This document shows, in pieces, positions 2,858-11,106 of a stretch of DNA of 24,322 nt. This stretch comes from a virus. The notes beneath the pieces are model-generated. The model was not told where the DNA came from. It was given only the letters and a program-made list of their open reading frames with translations, and did not search any database. Position 1 is the first letter of the stretch. Every line of letters begins with the position of its first letter. Where the stretch lies: IMG/VR virus record IMGVR_UViG_3300044237_000360, positions 1 through 24,322 of that record, one strand, 5' to 3'. A program made the translations under genes and the position numbers.

Positions 2858-3528
2858 TAGTTCATCCTTATGTCAGGTCTTACTCTAAATGATGCTCTAT
2901 CCTCATCTTGATCTGCAGCTCTTCTAAATTCTTCCTCATACATTGCTTTAAGTTGTGGTGTAAGTTGTGGATTCTTCTTCATAGACAAGTAGTACGCTAA
3001 ACCAGCAACAAAACAAGGATAAAACCTAAACGGCATGTCCATAGTATTAGTTGCAGCATCTGCATCATCCATTCTTACAAGCTTGTTAAAAACTAAAATA
3101 TCCGTGCTATTTTCTGGTGCAGGCCATATTTTTAAAGCAGGTGTAGTTAATTTATCAAAAAAGAACTGTGAGGGTCTTGCTTTTGTTTCTTTATTTGGAA
3201 TGTTTAGATATTCAGATCTACTAATTCTGTTCATGCTAATATCAGTTTGCTCTTGGTTTACAGTCCTACGCACCACTACATCTAATACATCAATTACATT
3301 AGCATTTAATGAATAACTAGAAGTGCCTTCAGTAACAGTTTGTGTGGCTTGTTCTATAGTCCATTGATTGAGACCTCTATTAGCCCATTCAGCTAACATA
3401 AGATTTACACTTCTAATAGCAGTTTTAAGATCATATCCTGTTCTTAATTCAGCACCACACCTCTCGTAGGCCTCTTCTATAAACTCTGTTACATTCGGTT
3501 CAAAATTTGTGCTGCCAGATAATGCCAT
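2857..3528 (-). CDS. Neck/tail adaptor-type structural protein, 223 aa
   Basis: The sequence starts with a helical segment (VTEFIEEAYERCGAELRTGYDL, AIRSVNLMLAEWANRGLNQW). A beta-rich middle follows (TSSYSLNANVIDVLDVVVRR, ALKIWPAPENSTDILVF), then a C-terminal helical part ending PQLKAMYEEEFRRAADQDEDR. This helix-sheet-helix plan, with a conserved IEEAYERCG start and LKIWPAP centre, is what I associate with tail accessory or adaptor proteins of P22-like and SU10-like podoviruses. It precedes the zinc-ribbon gene and the second adaptor gene, with one-base overlaps on both sides. A neck or tail-tube role is likely; which ring it forms is not visible. Confidence 0.72.
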   Translation of the reverse strand: MALSGSTNFEPNVTEFIEEAYERCGAELRTGYDLKTAIRSVNLMLAEWANRGLNQWTIEQATQTVTEGTSSYSLNANVIDVLDVVVRRTVNQEQTDISMNRISRSEYLNIPNKETKARPSQFFFDKLTTPALKIWPAPENSTDILVFNKLVRMDDADAATNTMDMPFRFYPCFVAGLAYYLSMKKNPQLTPQLKAMYEEEFRRAADQDEDRASFRVRPDIRMN

Positions 3529-4217
3529 TAATCTTTCCTATCATCTTGATTATATAGATTATCAAATGTTGTGTATGAATCCATATAACTATCGTGTTTC
3601 TCTGCTGAGTGAATCCATTGACTTGGTGAAAAATCGGGCGGCCCGTCACCAACACGCCAAAGAGCTGGATTTGTAGCTCTCACTCTATTGTTTGGTAAAG
3701 CTACAAAATTACCAGTATATTCACCAGCGTCTGTCAAATATAACACATGTGACTGTTTATGTTGAGCAGAATCGTCTGCGATACTATTTTCTGTGTAATC
3801 TACAGTAAACATATAGGTGCCTGTATAGAACTCACCCCCTATTTTGCATATCCAGGGAGAAGAGCTAACTCTATCTAATACTACTACTGAATGATGATGA
3901 CTCAAACAATCCCAAGGTTGTGCTAAATGATCCTCCATAGGTGTAGGCCATTCATCCACTGGTACATCAGCTATAAGTGCTTGTATTGGCATCCTTGCCC
4001 ACATAGCACCACCATGTATATTTTCATCTGGATGATCCTCTAGATCTGTTTCGCAACCAGTGAATACCACTTGAAAAGACAAAGATCTGTCTGGAATAGT
4101 GTTAACTGCAAAGGCTAAGGCATGCAGATATTCTCCGTGATATTTTTGATGGTTTGCTGTAAATTCTTTACGCACCCAACATTTGAACTGTGGTATGTTC
4201 GATATTAGATAAGACAA
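3528..4217 (-). CDS. Conserved virion-module protein with TTG start, 229 aa
   Basis: No named domain is recognised. The protein has several aromatic and histidine-rich stretches (YHGEYLHALAFAVNTIP, GGAMWARMPIQALIADV, CLSHHHSVVVLDR) and looks like a compact globular beta-rich protein with an acidic C-terminus. Similar proteins occur in marine phage neck modules as I remember them. The start appears to be TTG (4215-4217): the only in-frame upstream codons before a TAG are GGG, GTT and ATT. An AGGGGG Shine-Dalgarno sequence lies about 6 nt upstream of the TTG. The weak start codon behind a strong ribosome site may set a low copy number. It directly follows the small basic-protein block and precedes the adaptor genes. 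Confidence 0.72.
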   Translation of the reverse strand: MSYLISNIPQFKCWVRKEFTANHQKYHGEYLHALAFAVNTIPDRSLSFQVVFTGCETDLEDHPDENIHGGAMWARMPIQALIADVPVDEWPTPMEDHLAQPWDCLSHHHSVVVLDRVSSSPWICKIGGEFYTGTYMFTVDYTENSIADDSAQHKQSHVLYLTDAGEYTGNFVALPNNRVRATNPALWRVGDGPPDFSPSQWIHSAEKHDSYMDSYTTFDNLYNQDDRKD

Positions 4218-4238: not shown

Positions 4239-4493
4239 TTAAACTCTTCCGCCTTTTGACATGTATTTACTAGCTTTTCCACCTCTAGCCATGTACTTTG
4301 AAGCTTTACCACCTTTAGCCATATATTTAGATGCCTTCCCACCTTTTGCCATATATTTAGATGCTTTTCCGCCCTTTGCCATATATTTTGAAGCCTTACC
4401 GCCTTTTGCCATGTATTTTGAGGCTTTGCCACCTTTAGCCATGTACTTACTGACTTTACCGCCCATAGCGTATCCTTTTGTTCTTCTATACAT
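4239..4493 (-). CDS. Lysine-rich decapeptide-repeat protein, 84 aa
   Basis: After a short MYRRTKGYAMGG leader the protein is a tandem array of the decapeptide MAKGGKASKY with small variations (VSKY, MARGG, MSKGG), ending KGGRV. Each unit carries three lysines, two glycines, one methionine and one tyrosine. No hydrophobic core is possible, so it is probably extended or disordered and strongly basic, as expected for a nucleic-acid or polyanion ligand. A good AAGGA ribosome site precedes the ATG and overlaps the end of the 62-aa gene. Function unknown; candidates are DNA condensation in the head or a multi-site substrate for the SET protein encoded 1 kb upstream. A second frame (4205-4432) is open across the repeats but has no independent support. 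Confidence 0.75.
   Translation of the reverse strand: MYRRTKGYAMGGKVSKYMAKGGKASKYMAKGGKASKYMAKGGKASKYMAKGGKASKYMAKGGKASKYMARGGKASKYMSKGGRV
4261..4470 (-). repeat. Seven 30-bp tandem repeats inside the decapeptide gene
   Basis: Seven adjoining 30-bp units begin at 4261, 4291, 4321, 4351, 4381, 4411 and 4441 on the plus strand, each starting ATRTAYTT and ending CC or near it. Differences between units fall mostly at third codon positions of the minus-strand gene, so the decapeptide is conserved while the DNA drifts. This points to selection on the peptide rather than a recent slippage product. The length is a multiple of three in all units. There are no unique spacers, so it is not a CRISPR array. 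Confidence 0.9.
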
Positions 4494-4495
4494 AA

Positions 4496-4684
4496 TTAAT
4501 CCTTTTTCTTTGGTCTGCCTTTCTTAGCAGTTGTTTTCTTTGCAGCAGCCTTTTTTTTCGGCTTTACTTGATTGCCAGAAGAATCTAAATAAATACGATC
4601 TTCGACAACGGGCTGATCTGGTCTGACTTTTGCATCAAGTCTTGCTTGTAATTTTGGATCTACACTAGATTTTTTCTTTGGCAT
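4496..4684 (-). CDS. Histone-H1-like basic protein with AT-hook-like tail, 62 aa
   Basis: The 62-residue protein has a charged N-terminus (MPKKKSSVDPKLQARLDAKV), a short middle (DRIYLDSSGNQV) and a C-terminal tail of lysine, alanine and proline (KPKKKAAAKKTTAKKGRPKK, then KD). The KKGRPKKK stretch matches the AT-hook core GRP flanked by basic residues, which binds the minor groove of AT-rich DNA. The KKAAAKKTTAKK part resembles histone H1 tails. This suggests DNA binding and compaction, either in the virion or on host DNA; the function is inferred from composition. It lies between the EF-hand-like 148-aa gene and the decapeptide-repeat gene, two to eight bases from each. Confidence 0.75.
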   Translation of the reverse strand: MPKKKSSVDPKLQARLDAKVRPDQPVVEDRIYLDSSGNQVKPKKKAAAKKTTAKKGRPKKKD

Positions 4685-4692
4685 ATCTTCTC

Positions 4693-5139
4693 CTAACTAA
4701 TAGTTGTGACCTTTCTTTTGTCAGGTCTGACAGCTCCACAACCTCTTGCTATAAAGCCACCTTTTTTCATTTTAACACGATTTTGTTTTTTCATGGCTTT
4801 TTCGATTGCCATACCTCTTTTCATCTCATAGGATGAAATTTTGCCATCTTTATCAAGATCTGCTTTTTTTCTATTCTTTAACATTGTTGTGCCTCCTGTC
4901 TTCATAGAAACTCTTGCCTTTTTTGTGTTTGCAACCACTGTTTTACCTTTAGCCCCTGCTCTTTTTTTCTTTCTTGCAGTTTTTGCTCTTTCTGACTTAG
5001 ATAAACTTCTAGCTTTTGCAGCTGGTAAACAACGATCTGGGTTTTTTTTATCTTTACTTGTGCCGCAAGGCCCTTTAATAGATCCATCTGTGCCAATGCG
5101 CACCCAGTTTTGTTCACGCCACTGCTTAAGTTGTCCCAT
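4693..5139 (-). CDS. Basic protein with EF-hand-like loop, 148 aa
   Basis: Three parts can be read. Residues 1-42 include DWVRIG-type sequence (NWVRIGTDGSIKGPCGTSKD) with two cysteines; this opening is widespread in marine phages as I remember. Residues 43-90 are lysine/arginine-rich (KSERAKTARKKKRAGAKGK). Residues 94-105 (DLDKDGKISSYE) fit a calcium-binding EF-hand loop with Asp at positions 1, 3 and 5, Gly at 6, Ile at 8 and Glu at 12. The C-terminus MKKGGFIARGCGAVRPDKRK shares its GGF..RG.GAV pattern with the next protein upstream. Start ATG overlaps the preceding TAA by one base (TAATG). Function unknown; a basic virion or DNA-associated protein is plausible. Confidence 0.75.
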   Translation of the reverse strand: MGQLKQWREQNWVRIGTDGSIKGPCGTSKDKKNPDRCLPAAKARSLSKSERAKTARKKKRAGAKGKTVVANTKKARVSMKTGGTTMLKNRKKADLDKDGKISSYEMKRGMAIEKAMKKQNRVKMKKGGFIARGCGAVRPDKRKVTTIS

Positions 5140-5462
5140 TACCTTAGTCTATCTGACATGACAGCACCTTGGCCTCTAATACTTACGAAGCCACCCTTAG
5201 CCTTTTTTTTCCTTTTTTTACTGCCTTTTGCATAATTAGGATCTTTACAATACTTCGATGCAGCCATATTTGCATATGCTGAAGGGTATGTATCAAAAGT
5301 TCTTTTTGCCCAAGCTTTGCCCTCTGGGCAAATTTTGCCTCCACTTTTAACTTTACCTCCCTTTTTCATTTTAAGAGTTTGTAATGTTTTTGCTTGTTTT
5401 GCATGCGTTTTGCTTGCTTTTTGCAGACCCTTAATAACTTTTTTTAATTTTTGTTTAGCCAT
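5139..5462 (-). CDS. Basic protein with YPSAYAN motif, 107 aa
   Basis: The first 40 residues are a lysine-rich helix (KQKLKKVIKGLQKASKTHAK) followed by KMKKGGKVKSGGK. Residues 44-75 hold the motif CPEGKAWAKRTFDTYPSAYA, with a second Cys shortly after (KYCKDP). The YPSAYAN signature occurs in many small phage and giant-virus proteins of unknown role, possibly the DUF5872 group; I could not check this. The C-terminus is KAKGGFVSIRGQGAV, matching the 148-aa neighbour. The start overlaps the end of the SET gene by 8 nt and the stop overlaps the next start, so expression is tightly coupled. Its many lysines make it another potential substrate of the SET enzyme. Confidence 0.75.
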   Translation of the reverse strand: MAKQKLKKVIKGLQKASKTHAKQAKTLQTLKMKKGGKVKSGGKICPEGKAWAKRTFDTYPSAYANMAASKYCKDPNYAKGSKKRKKKAKGGFVSIRGQGAVMSDRLR

Positions 5463-5790
5463 AATTTAACTCGTCTAAATGATAGTTTAGCGTAAGCTCC
5501 TCGCCAACACTAATTTTTTTTGATGTAATTACATTAAAAACTCTATAGTCGTCCCAGTCTAATTCTTCGCTAAGGTAACAATTTGAATCTTCTGAGTGAT
5601 TTAAAAAGCCCCCTATGGATGTTCTTACATAACCTTTTATAATAGGAACTTTTATATGTGACATACCTAAATCAAAATCTTTGTCAATATTATCTACCGC
5701 AAACAGTCCATATCCTTCTATAGGGCTTTTTTGAACTTCAATACAATCTGGTAATGGTTTGTAATAAAATTTATTATAAACAGGATACAT
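5455..5790 (-). CDS. Minimal SET-domain protein-lysine methyltransferase
   Basis: At 111 residues the protein is almost only a SET domain, which uses S-adenosylmethionine to methylate lysine side chains of proteins. The marks are visible in order: KSPIEGYGLFA at 21-31 (SET-N with the SAM-binding GxG region), GGFLNHSEDSNCYL at 60-73 (pseudoknot NHS..N), and ISVGEELTLNY at 93-103 with the expected catalytic Tyr at 103. No pre-SET or Cys-rich post-SET region is present. Its size is close to the chlorovirus vSET enzyme (119 aa), which methylates histone H3. It overlaps its neighbours on both sides (TAATG upstream, 8 nt downstream), all encoding lysine-rich proteins. Substrates are not shown by the sequence; the neighbouring basic proteins, host ribosomal proteins or HU-type proteins are candidates. 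Confidence 0.85.
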   Translation of the reverse strand: MYPVYNKFYYKPLPDCIEVQKSPIEGYGLFAVDNIDKDFDLGMSHIKVPIIKGYVRTSIGGFLNHSEDSNCYLSEELDWDDYRVFNVITSKKISVGEELTLNYHLDELNYG

Positions 5791-6080
5791 TATTTAGTTC
5801 TGCCAAATTTTTTACGTATTGAGTCTTTACCACGCCTAAATATTTCTGCTTGCCTTGGCTTGCCACCATACTTAGATCTTTGTTCACCCACTGTTAATAT
5901 TTGTATTAATCTAGCAAAAGGTTTTTTAGTTTTTTTAACTTTAGCAACTGTATCTCTTGCATCTTGGACTGTAGCATATTTAATAGAAACTGTATCTTTA
6001 GGGTTTTCATCAGTATAAAGCCTTCGACCTGAACCTTTTGGTTTTTTACCAGTGCCTTTCTTTGGATCTGACTTAGCCAT
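5790..6080 (-). CDS. Conserved basic phage protein, 96 aa
   Basis: The N-terminus reads DPKKGTGKKPKGSGRRLYTD followed by ENPKDTVSIKY. I recognise this GTGKKPKGSGRRLYTDENP pattern from small proteins of cyanophages and other marine phages, where no function is assigned. The second half is amphipathic and basic (ATVQDARDTVAKVKKTKKPF, RLIQILTVGEQRSKYGGK, then RRGKDSIRKKFGRTK). No cysteine or membrane segment. It precedes the SET gene, with the TAA and ATG sharing one base, so the two are probably translated together. It could be a substrate or partner of SET, or a DNA-binding virion component; both are inference. Confidence 0.75.
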   Translation of the reverse strand: MAKSDPKKGTGKKPKGSGRRLYTDENPKDTVSIKYATVQDARDTVAKVKKTKKPFARLIQILTVGEQRSKYGGKPRQAEIFRRGKDSIRKKFGRTK

Positions 6081-6380
6081 TTAACATTTCCACCTTCTTC
6101 TAGCTTGTCTAATTCTTGAATTTGGATTGTTTCTTGTTTTTGCAGAACTTTTCTTTAATTGCCCTAGCGACCTTGCACAAAAAGATTTTCTTCTTTTAGC
6201 TGCTTTGCTACCTTTTTTTACCTTGCCAGTAACAGCGCCTTTTAATTTAGATCCTGGGTTAGCTTTTCTATAAGCTCTTATTCCTTTCTTAGTCATACCC
6301 GCCCCTTTTTTAGTGGGGCGGTAATTACCACCTTTACCAGTTGTTCTGCGTATTTGTTTAGCTTTTCGTCTGGTAGCCAT
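6081..6380 (-). CDS. DUF6321-like basic protein, 99 aa
   Basis: The central block GAGMTKKGIRAYRKANPGSK (27-45) with KLKGAV, then GSKAAKRRKSFCARS (57-71), and the extreme C-terminus RRRWKC match the DUF6321 pattern as I remember it from marine phages and giant viruses: a GMT.KG...YR..NPGSKL start, an RR.SFCAR centre and a terminal W.C. The function of that family is unknown. About a third of the residues are Arg or Lys. The two conserved Cys could bind metal or a partner. It begins the basic-protein block after two structural genes and ends one base before the next start. Confidence 0.78.
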   Translation of the reverse strand: MATRRKAKQIRRTTGKGGNYRPTKKGAGMTKKGIRAYRKANPGSKLKGAVTGKVKKGSKAAKRRKSFCARSLGQLKKSSAKTRNNPNSRIRQARRRWKC

Positions 6381-6383
6381 TCA

Positions 6384-6788
6384 TTAATAGTTTTTGTTCA
6401 AAACTAAGATTATCGAATACGCATCGCCACTAGAGTGACCAACTGTTGTGAAGTCTATATCGCCTGTAACACCTGAACCTGCATTGTTAGGTATACCACT
6501 AAATCTATCATCATAATACTCATCACCTGTGCTATCTGCAGGTAGTGGTATTGCTAAAACATTAGTGGATGCGTCAAATTCTATATCTACACCCATACCT
6601 CTGGTTGCCCAGTATATGCGTGCTATAGAGACGCTGGTACAAGCTTCTCCTGCACTGTTGGAGGTCAATGCGGATACATCTACTTTTTTAACACTAGATT
6701 CGCCTGTACCATCAGACTCGTTTGTAAACTTTAAGATAGCAACTCTTTCACCATCTTGGATAGTTTGTGACGTTACTGTATCTGCCAT
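6384..6788 (-). CDS. Putative virion structural protein, 134 aa
   Basis: An acidic, beta-rich protein with a conserved-looking start, MADTVTSQTIQDGERVAILK, followed by FTNESDGTGESSVKKVDVSA. Proteins with this TSQT..DG.R.A..KFTN.SDGTGES start are common in marine cyanophages and related viruses, where they are called structural or hypothetical. Later segments (IARIYWATRGMGVDIEF, NVLAIPLPADS, AYSIILVLNKNY) suggest a jelly-roll or immunoglobulin-like sandwich. It lies after the 238-aa beta protein in the post-capsid part of the operon. A decoration or minor head protein is the most economical guess. Confidence 0.75.
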   Translation of the reverse strand: MADTVTSQTIQDGERVAILKFTNESDGTGESSVKKVDVSALTSNSAGEACTSVSIARIYWATRGMGVDIEFDASTNVLAIPLPADSTGDEYYDDRFSGIPNNAGSGVTGDIDFTTVGHSSGDAYSIILVLNKNY

Positions 6789-7686: not shown

Positions 7687-8589
7687 TTACGCTCCTTGAG
7701 AACCGAATACGGCTCTAAAGTTTGAATATCCGAAGCTATAACGCTCTCTAGCCTTATATCTCATATTACCTGTATCGAAGTCTCCCTCTAATGCAGTTTG
7801 CATTGGTGATCTTTCAAAATACTTAAAGCCGTCAGGGCAGTCAGTTTTAATGAAATAAGCATCAGTATCTGTAAGATAGTTATTTACAACATATCCATCA
7901 GGAAGCATGCCCATATTATTGATAGCGTTAATATCGTTATCAGATGTGGCTACTCTGCCTGGTGTGTTGAGTAATCTATCAGCTACAAACACTAACTGTG
8001 GTGGAATGATGAGTTTCATTCCTCTTAAAGCAATATTAAGACCTCTATCATCTGTTAATGTAGAAATACTAATAAGGTTGTCTTCAAGAGATGTCTCATT
8101 TAAGTCCGCCATAGTAGTTGCTCTGTTTGCTAGTGAACCACCGCCGCCTAGTGGGTGATCTGTAGCTATCAAAGTTTTACCATCACCGCCAGTAACACTA
8201 AACGCATTGTTTAGTACTGCTGCAGCTTTGATTTGCTTTGTGTTTGCCATAGATCTAGCCAAGGCTTTGGTATATCTTGCTCCGAGTCTATCATAAAGAT
8301 TATCCTCAATTGCTTCTTCAGTAAGTGCGAAAGCTAAAGCCACTGTTTCGTGGGTATAACGTGAAGTGTAACCTTCGTTAGCTGTATCAAATCTGACACC
8401 GCTTCCTTCAGCTTTTACTTCAGCATTACCAAACCCTACTATTAGGGTTTCTTCTTCAAACGCTCTATCAGAAGTTTCTGCATCGTAGATCTCTGTATGT
8501 TGAGCTTCGTATCTGGCATATTCCATACCGAACAAAGCATTAAGACCTGGCTCTAATTCTTTAGCTAATTGTGCTCTATTTATTGCCAT
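7687..8589 (-). CDS. Major capsid protein (HK97 fold)
   Basis: The 300-residue protein has the layout of HK97-fold major head proteins: a helical N-terminal arm (RAQLAKELEPGLNALFGMEY, residues 5-24), an E-loop-like beta segment (ETLIVGFGNAEVKAEGSGVR, about 47-66), a long spine helix region (VALAFALTEEAIEDNLYDRL, about 83-102) and a P/A-domain with LKLIIPPQLVFVADRLLNTP-like sequence (LIIPPQLVFVADRLL). The C-terminus is aromatic (RERYSFGYSNFRAVFGSQ). It forms the icosahedral shell. Its position after the scaffold and two head-associated genes, and the terminator just after it, agree with this. There is no sign of an internal protease or delta domain in this protein; the scaffold is a separate gene. 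Confidence 0.9.
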   Translation of the reverse strand: MAINRAQLAKELEPGLNALFGMEYARYEAQHTEIYDAETSDRAFEEETLIVGFGNAEVKAEGSGVRFDTANEGYTSRYTHETVALAFALTEEAIEDNLYDRLGARYTKALARSMANTKQIKAAAVLNNAFSVTGGDGKTLIATDHPLGGGGSLANRATTMADLNETSLEDNLISISTLTDDRGLNIALRGMKLIIPPQLVFVADRLLNTPGRVATSDNDINAINNMGMLPDGYVVNNYLTDTDAYFIKTDCPDGFKYFERSPMQTALEGDFDTGNMRYKARERYSFGYSNFRAVFGSQGA

Positions 8590-10611: not shown

Positions 10612-11106
10612 CTAAACTGCAAGAATATCGTCTGGATCTAAGATTGTGGCTATAACTTCATCATCATTAATAATTCTACATTCAGATTCATCTCCGAGTT
10701 TGAAACGAGCACCAGCATATCTGCCAATCAATACCCATTGTTTTTCCTGACACCAAGGTTCTGCAAATTTATTTGCATCTTTATAGCAATCAGGACCCAT
10801 TTTTACAACATACCCCACAACTGTAGCTAGAGATTCTCTATCTAAAGTTTGTTGTACTAAATGAATACCACCTTCAGTTACACCTTTACCTTTGTAAGGC
10901 AGTATTAAAATACGCCAACCTGTTGGTTGTGGCATACGCTCTAAAATTGATTTGTCGAGAAGTGTAGGGTCAAGAACACGTGCCTCTTGTGACACATATG
11001 GTAATTCTTGACTAACTTCCTCTTTTGTTTCCTCTTGTTTTACTGCAGCTTCTTCTGCTTCTATTTCTTTGGCTATATGTTCAGGAACCTGTATCTTCGA
11101 TGTCAT
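10612..11106 (-). CDS. GroES/Cpn10-like phage co-chaperonin
   Basis: Residues 1-58 are an acidic, Glu-rich extension not found in bacterial GroES. From about 62 the Cpn10 pattern appears: GWRILILPYKGKGVTEGGIH with a GGI-type loop (about 62-82, the mobile loop that docks to GroEL), then LATVVGYVVKMGPDC, WVLIGRYAGARFKLGD and a C-terminal DEVIATILDPDDIL. The co-chaperonin caps GroEL and helps fold large proteins; T4 gp31 does this for the T4 capsid protein. Its place between portal and scaffold/capsid genes suggests it supports folding of the capsid protein in the host chaperonin. The start region overlaps the preceding gene by 26 nt. Identification rests on motif reading and is fairly secure. 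Confidence 0.8.
   Translation of the reverse strand: MTSKIQVPEHIAKEIEAEEAAVKQEETKEEVSQELPYVSQEARVLDPTLLDKSILERMPQPTGWRILILPYKGKGVTEGGIHLVQQTLDRESLATVVGYVVKMGPDCYKDANKFAEPWCQEKQWVLIGRYAGARFKLGDESECRIINDDEVIATILDPDDILAV

Follow-up and report, generated by a model that had tools for sequence, protein, structure and literature searches.

SET-domain methyltransferases comparable to the one discussed here have been described from viruses as well as from prokaryotes. The vSET protein of PBCV-1 (A612L), a minimal viral SET, is a chlorovirus histone H3K27 methyltransferase that acts on the histones of the eukaryotic host. cpnSET of Chlamydophila pneumoniae methylates Hc1, a basic DNA-associated protein, and Go1-SET of Methanosarcina mazei methylates MC1-alpha, a small basic DNA-associated protein (both reviewed in PMC3980110). 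Our subject is a SET gene in a 24,322-base IMG/VR virus record of a marine phage (IMGVR_UViG_3300044237_000360; the whole record is called the window below), where it lies in a row of six small genes for strongly basic proteins, B1 to B6 (the island). The window SET is similar in size to vSET and its predicted fold matches it; the phage, however, most likely infects bacteria, as its terminase is closest to those of pelagiphages, and the substrate must therefore differ from the histones that vSET modifies. The likeness to cpnSET with Hc1 and Hc2 (a prokaryotic SET with lysine-rich, histone-H1-like substrates; PMC3980110) and that to Go1-SET with MC1-alpha (again a prokaryotic SET, with a small basic protein as its substrate) hold only if our guess at the substrate is right. 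For cpnSET, interaction and methylation were measured, whereas the window case is one of gene linkage, with basic proteins that are not established Hc1 relatives; likewise MC1 is a known DNA-binding protein, whereas B5, the island protein that concerns us most, finds no match in the PDB and would at most be a candidate DNA binder.

Searches of the open-access literature turned up no paper that describes a SET enzyme from a phage, so phage protein-lysine methylation seems to be little studied; papers on HTVC023P-type phages and on pelagiphage infection contain no SET or methyltransferase in their main text. The original prediction for this locus, made from the letters alone, had likewise known of no such phage system, and for the literature this stands, but databases already list proteins of uncultured Caudovirales phages under the name SET. 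What appears new, judged by the same open-access literature (which held no paper on either point), is that marine phages of the HTVC027P kind have a modular basic island in which B5+SET forms an optional cassette, and that these enzymes are related to cellular SET proteins of SAR11 bacteria.

The SET protein and its basic neighbours

The identity of the SET protein follows from several lines of comparison. It scores 34.4 bits against the Pfam SET family (curated cut-off 22.4), belongs to phrog_28741 (E 6e-22), and both phmmer and a family profile pick up MLL1 and vSET in the PDB. The motifs that the original prediction had called intact (GYG at residues 26-28; NHS at 64-66 with N70; GEELTLNY at 96-103) align with IHGRGLF, FINHSCEPNC and GEELTYDY of MLL1, the terminal tyrosine included, and G26, G28, N64, H65, N70, E98 and Y103 are invariant across 32 divergent alignment rows. 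Comparison with the structure of vSET had been proposed as a check: the AlphaFold2 model (mean predicted local distance difference test score, pLDDT, 84.3) matches vSET (3kma; Foldseek E 1.6e-6) with a Z score of 11.3 over 89 residues at a root-mean-square deviation of 2.5 and 29% identity, and MLL1 with a Z score of 12.1. Structures of MLL1 with bound S-adenosylhomocysteine exist, and the conserved motifs aligned with MLL1 suggest the S-adenosylmethionine pocket of the window protein. Purifying selection is strong, the median ratio of nonsynonymous to synonymous substitution rates (dN/dS) being 0.038 over 286 pairs. NCBIfam models gave only hits far below cut-off to a Legionella SET effector when run on SET relatives, which we take to reflect the common SET core. 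From its motifs, predicted fold and selection, the window protein is a genuine, conserved SET protein and probably an active lysine methyltransferase.

All seven open reading frames of the cluster, i.e., the SET gene and the six small basic genes that the original prediction had placed around it, are present with the lengths it gave and on the minus strand (Table 1). Also confirmed is that the genes overlap or nearly touch: B6 and B5 abut, B5 and SET overlap by 1 base pair (bp), sharing the A of TAATG, SET and B4 overlap by 8 bp (ATGGCTAA), B4 and B3 by 1 bp; gaps of 8 and 2 bp separate B3 from B2 and B2 from B1. Overlapping start and stop joints of this kind are typical of translational coupling. 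The six neighbours have isoelectric points (pI) of 10.4 to 12.0 and net charges of +13 to +36; the SET protein, with a pI of 4.7 and a net charge of -8, is acidic. The other genes tested near the cluster are all acidic, except the neutral g9189 and g11290 (pI 10.2). The label "histone-like" given to the basic neighbours, all of which have a pI above 10, is compositional: B6 belongs to a Pfam family of unknown function (DUF6321), B5 finds no PDB match at E 0.001, and a role in DNA condensation is at most a possibility.

Table 1. Features of the island and of the surrounding virion genes in the window.
Feature	Position	Strand	Remarks
B1, 84 amino acids	4239..4493	-	KASKYMAKGG decapeptide repeat
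B2, basic, 62 amino acids	4496..4684	-	KKGRPKKK tail, AT-hook-like, not conserved
B3, basic, 148 amino acids	4693..5139	-	phrog_23735; C-terminal RGCGAV tag; EF-hand-like loop DLDKDGKISSYE
B4, basic, 107 amino acids	5139..5462	-	phrog_27331; 8-bp overlap of its start with the SET stop; RGQGxVMxxRLR tag at C-terminus
SET-domain protein, 111 amino acids	5455..5790	-	Pfam SET PF00856, 34.4 bits
B5, basic, 96 amino acids	5790..6080	-	stop overlaps SET start (TAATG)
B6, 99 amino acids, net charge +36	6081..6380	-	first gene of island; DUF6321, Pfam PF19846, 45.6 bits
B5+SET cassette, ~618 bp	5463..6080	-	absent in L442; 8-bp ATGGCTAA repeats at ends (6073-6080 and 5455-5462)
g3528, tail-side border of island	3528..4217	-	phrog_3704 family, annotated "ferredoxin" or "PurM"
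g6384, acidic, capsid-side border of island	6384..6788	-	anchor unselected for SET
Major capsid protein	7687..8589	-	Pfam Phage_capsid_4, 53.3 bits; 67% identity with annotated HTVC027P capsid
GroES-like co-chaperonin	10612-11106		Cpn10, 29.6 bits (cut-off 21.1)

Linkage of SET and B5 within and beyond one clade

Window-type SETs, defined by at least 70% identity, had two or more basic genes no further than three genes away in 58 of 58 distinct neighbourhoods, against 7% of the more distant genes in the same loci that count as basic by the same rule; since neighbourhood genes were called by a simple longest-open-reading-frame rule, single genes in these counts may be misjudged. The linkage persists in loci whose island is composed differently, and in loci of which the greater part, the capsid gene included, has diverged or is no longer recognised (L074, L081-L085 and L126-L130). 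Among 53 distinct arrangements the gene upstream of SET was B5 in 30, and the gene downstream was a member of the B3/B4 cluster in 42.

A different sample was obtained by fetching loci through the flanking genes g6384 or g2857 regardless of SET, taking the best 80 matches to the window, and it gave 79 distinct loci. Islands with SET amounted to 15 of these, a rate of 19% that holds for near relatives only because of this sampling; the other 64 (81%) lacked SET, and 63 of them still had at least two basic genes. B5 was present in 12 of the 15 islands with SET and in 23 of the 64 without (p=0.003; seven families tested, kinship uncorrected); none of the other island families was enriched with SET in these loci (p=0.34 or more). 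An association of SET with DUF6321 and with a family ending in YWSC was rejected as an ascertainment artefact, because B6 and B4 had served as queries for the SET-less islands concerned; the loci fetched by flanking genes did not show it.

B5 and SET can also be absent together. The close relative IMGVR_UViG_3300030085_000866 (L442; 91-92% identity to the window across the region) lacks exactly these two genes, so that its B6 runs directly into B4: in a blastn comparison the match runs up to 6073 at 92% identity and restarts at 5462 at 91%. The 8-bp sequence that repeats at the two ends of the cassette starts both B5 and B4 and marks the joint in L442. In another contig (L148/L213) B5 is kept and SET is missing, with a clean TAATG joint. 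The closely related pair with and without B5+SET offers a clean natural comparison, and the small size of the proteins allows them to be tested directly in vitro.

Outside the clade of the window, SET genes mostly lie apart from such basic clusters, which on the terms of the original prediction weakens the link. A basic-cluster context was found for 0 of 9 SETs of the sister group, 0 of 41 of the Kolga type, 6 of 63 of the P-SSM7 type and 0 of 2 of the P-RSM6 type; SETs outside islands adjoin nrdB/talC, gp25/baseplate wedge, helicase or glycosyltransferase genes. A B5 relative, searched for within limited flanks, lies on the contig in 9 of 11 sister-group loci, at 1.4-2.6 kilobases from SET and not adjacent to it, and in none of 57 Kolga-type or 81 P-SSM7-type loci. 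The hypothetical proteins of P-SSM7, P-RSM6 and Kolga EXVC016S belong to the same phrog_28741 family as the window SET (42-45% identity over 85% of the protein by tblastn); they differ from it in having no MYPVYNKFY N-terminal extension and in lying mostly outside basic islands. The complete genomes of HTVC027P and HTVC023P have neither SET nor B5. The tie between SET and basic genes that had been proposed is therefore a property of one clade and not a general system, and a dedicated enzyme-substrate pair of SET and island was rejected as a general rule, each being found without the other. SET is an optional, lineage-specific addition to a row of basic genes that most phages keep without it.

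Candidate substrates of the enzyme

We tentatively prefer to see SET as an accessory late lysine methyltransferase whose targets would be B5 and possibly other island proteins, and whose effect would be to tune their binding to nucleic acid or capsid. As a minimal SET-domain enzyme carried as an accessory module of the virion-block (late) operon, it would be made late, by coupled translation along with the basic proteins; its acidic surface might contact these proteins, specific lysines in B5, perhaps also in other island proteins, would become methylated, and the modification would adjust binding during assembly. As 64 of 79 islands lack SET, the modification would be an adjustment that the island can do without. 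For this reading we count the identity and fold of SET, its low dN/dS, the linkage in all 58 neighbourhoods, the genes most often found directly upstream and downstream of SET, the enrichment of B5, the joint absence of B5 and SET in L442, the B5 relatives of the sister group, and the precedents of cpnSET and Go1-SET. Several observations weigh against it. The B5 association rests on 15 SET-bearing loci without correction for kinship; B5 occurs without SET in 23 of 64 islands and in the isolate HTVC033P, and SET without B5 in Kolga, P-SSM7 and P-RSM6, whose genomes are complete. In a maximum-likelihood tree of 66 SETs, many inner forks of which are weak because of the few columns, the SETs in basic context group on a single branch (support 97/90, one change); the context thus arose once, and the linkage may reflect inheritance with module exchange. 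The more ambitious proposal of a phage protein-methylation system, with SET co-translated with a basic substrate of its own, B5, gained or lost along with it, and marking lysine-rich proteins during virion assembly, seems to us somewhat unlikely; if true, it would be for phages what the methylation of chromatin proteins is elsewhere.

The first candidates for the substrate are B5 and the island proteins, yet a host target appears nearly as likely. SET would then act in host takeover or as an auxiliary enzyme, on a host protein of the same class as the target of the cellular SAR11 SET, and the island would be a swap site for small late genes; this is a possibility of real weight. Most phage SETs of the family live outside basic islands, 81% of the islands manage without SET, and relatives occur in 34 of 297 sampled SAR11-family genomes (~11%), although the best hits in two of these (G004 and G117) resemble phage sequence by identity or neighbours. 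The SAR11 proteins belong to the same family and open with MY(K/R)PLP...SPIEGLGL, but are longer (~123-166 amino acids) and chromosomal, with metabolic-gene neighbours in 9 of 10 inspected neighbourhoods: class-III aminotransferase and alanine dehydrogenase, FAD/GCV_T oxidoreductase, Rieske oxygenase or M24 peptidase (loci L596-L605). The set of aminotransferase, alanine dehydrogenase and NMT1-like transporter we take to serve taurine use. The family is widespread in marine phage contigs. Its cellular form, which a minority of the SAR11-family genomes carry, shows that such SET enzymes have a role without phage basic proteins, and this is what makes a host target a serious rival. A host target sits poorly with window-type SETs never being found outside a basic island in 58 neighbourhoods and with the joint absence of B5 and SET in L442, and since the window SET is only ~33-36% identical to the SAR11 SETs, a common target should not be assumed. 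Methylation of a virion structural protein outside the island (the capsid, g3528 or a head-tail protein), with the position in the late operon giving only the timing, strikes us as distinctly unlikely. The island does sit inside the virion gene block, SET and g3528 adjoin each other still in L081, L082, L085 and L126, where the other genes are mostly unrecognisable as relatives, and the P-RSM6-type and part of the P-SSM7-type SETs adjoin baseplate genes; relatives of g3528, however, are present in 114 phage records, most of them without SET. That SET might be a catalytically dead, acidic chaperone for basic proteins is suggested by its charge next to neighbours of opposite sign, but the invariant cofactor and catalytic residues, a dN/dS of 0.04 and the Kolga-type SETs, which are not acidic, make this very improbable.

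Island genes and the virion block

The island is a modular stretch inside the block of virion genes (those for the capsid, a Cpn10-like protein, the portal and the large terminase TerL), with capsid genes on one side and head-tail genes on the other. The nearest large terminases are those of phage 023Pt_psg01, the Pelagibacter phages HTVC027P and HTVC023P, and phage DSL-LC04 (56-61% identity). The order of the TerL, portal, GroES-like, scaffold-position and capsid genes is the same in the window and in HTVC027P; the placement of the Cpn10-like gene between the portal and scaffold-position genes is shared with HTVC027P and HTVC023P. At the tail-side border, g3528 gave no Pfam domain match at E 0.1; the PurM and ferredoxin labels of its family come from cyanophages and look like misannotation. 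Kolga EXVC016S, a SET-bearing pelagiphage, encodes ribosomal protein S21, a lysine-rich host-type protein (L606, 36025-36231).

As to the single island proteins, an alignment of 21 relatives of B5 has 34 invariant columns, and structure prediction gives a C-terminal three-helix bundle behind a disordered basic N-terminus; compared with the PDB, the model had no match at E 0.001, with only helices of Dps and Cre at E above 1. Pfam searches gave no hit for B2, B4 and B5 and only sub-threshold hits for B1 and B3. The lysine decapeptide repeat noted earlier in B1 is borne out as a 30-bp tandem array of 6.6 copies (4252-4449). The AT-hook-like KKGRPKKK is indeed present in B2, but no more than 7 of 34 distinct homologues have a GRP core flanked by basic residues, and the AT-hook is therefore ruled out as a conserved feature. 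An EF-hand in B3 (EF-hand_1, E 9e-4, below the curated cut-off) was also rejected: the strict pattern occurs only in the window protein, and looser forms in part of the relatives, where the loop is partly retained as DLNKDGK(I/L)SSYE.

B6 has relatives in 116 phage records and more than 590 IMG/VR matches. In the T4-like cyanophages S-B43 and S-SCSM1, DUF6321 ends a larger protein annotated as a structural or virion protein, hinting that the domain may be a virion part. Over the 79 flank-fetched loci, the first island position is held by DUF6321 in 33 and by the YWSC-ending family, which has no Pfam hit, in 44, never by both and by neither in 2; the two have similar C-termini (RRKSF.AR ... W.C or YWSC), and Kolga too has the YWSC type. 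Otherwise dissimilar small basic proteins, B3 and B4 among them, share a C-terminal tag of roughly GG..(I)(A)[RK]G[CQ]G.VM..R[RKL], which could be a sorting or assembly signal; in the fetched loci it was carried by 166 of 829 distinct basic proteins and by 3 of 3,927 others.

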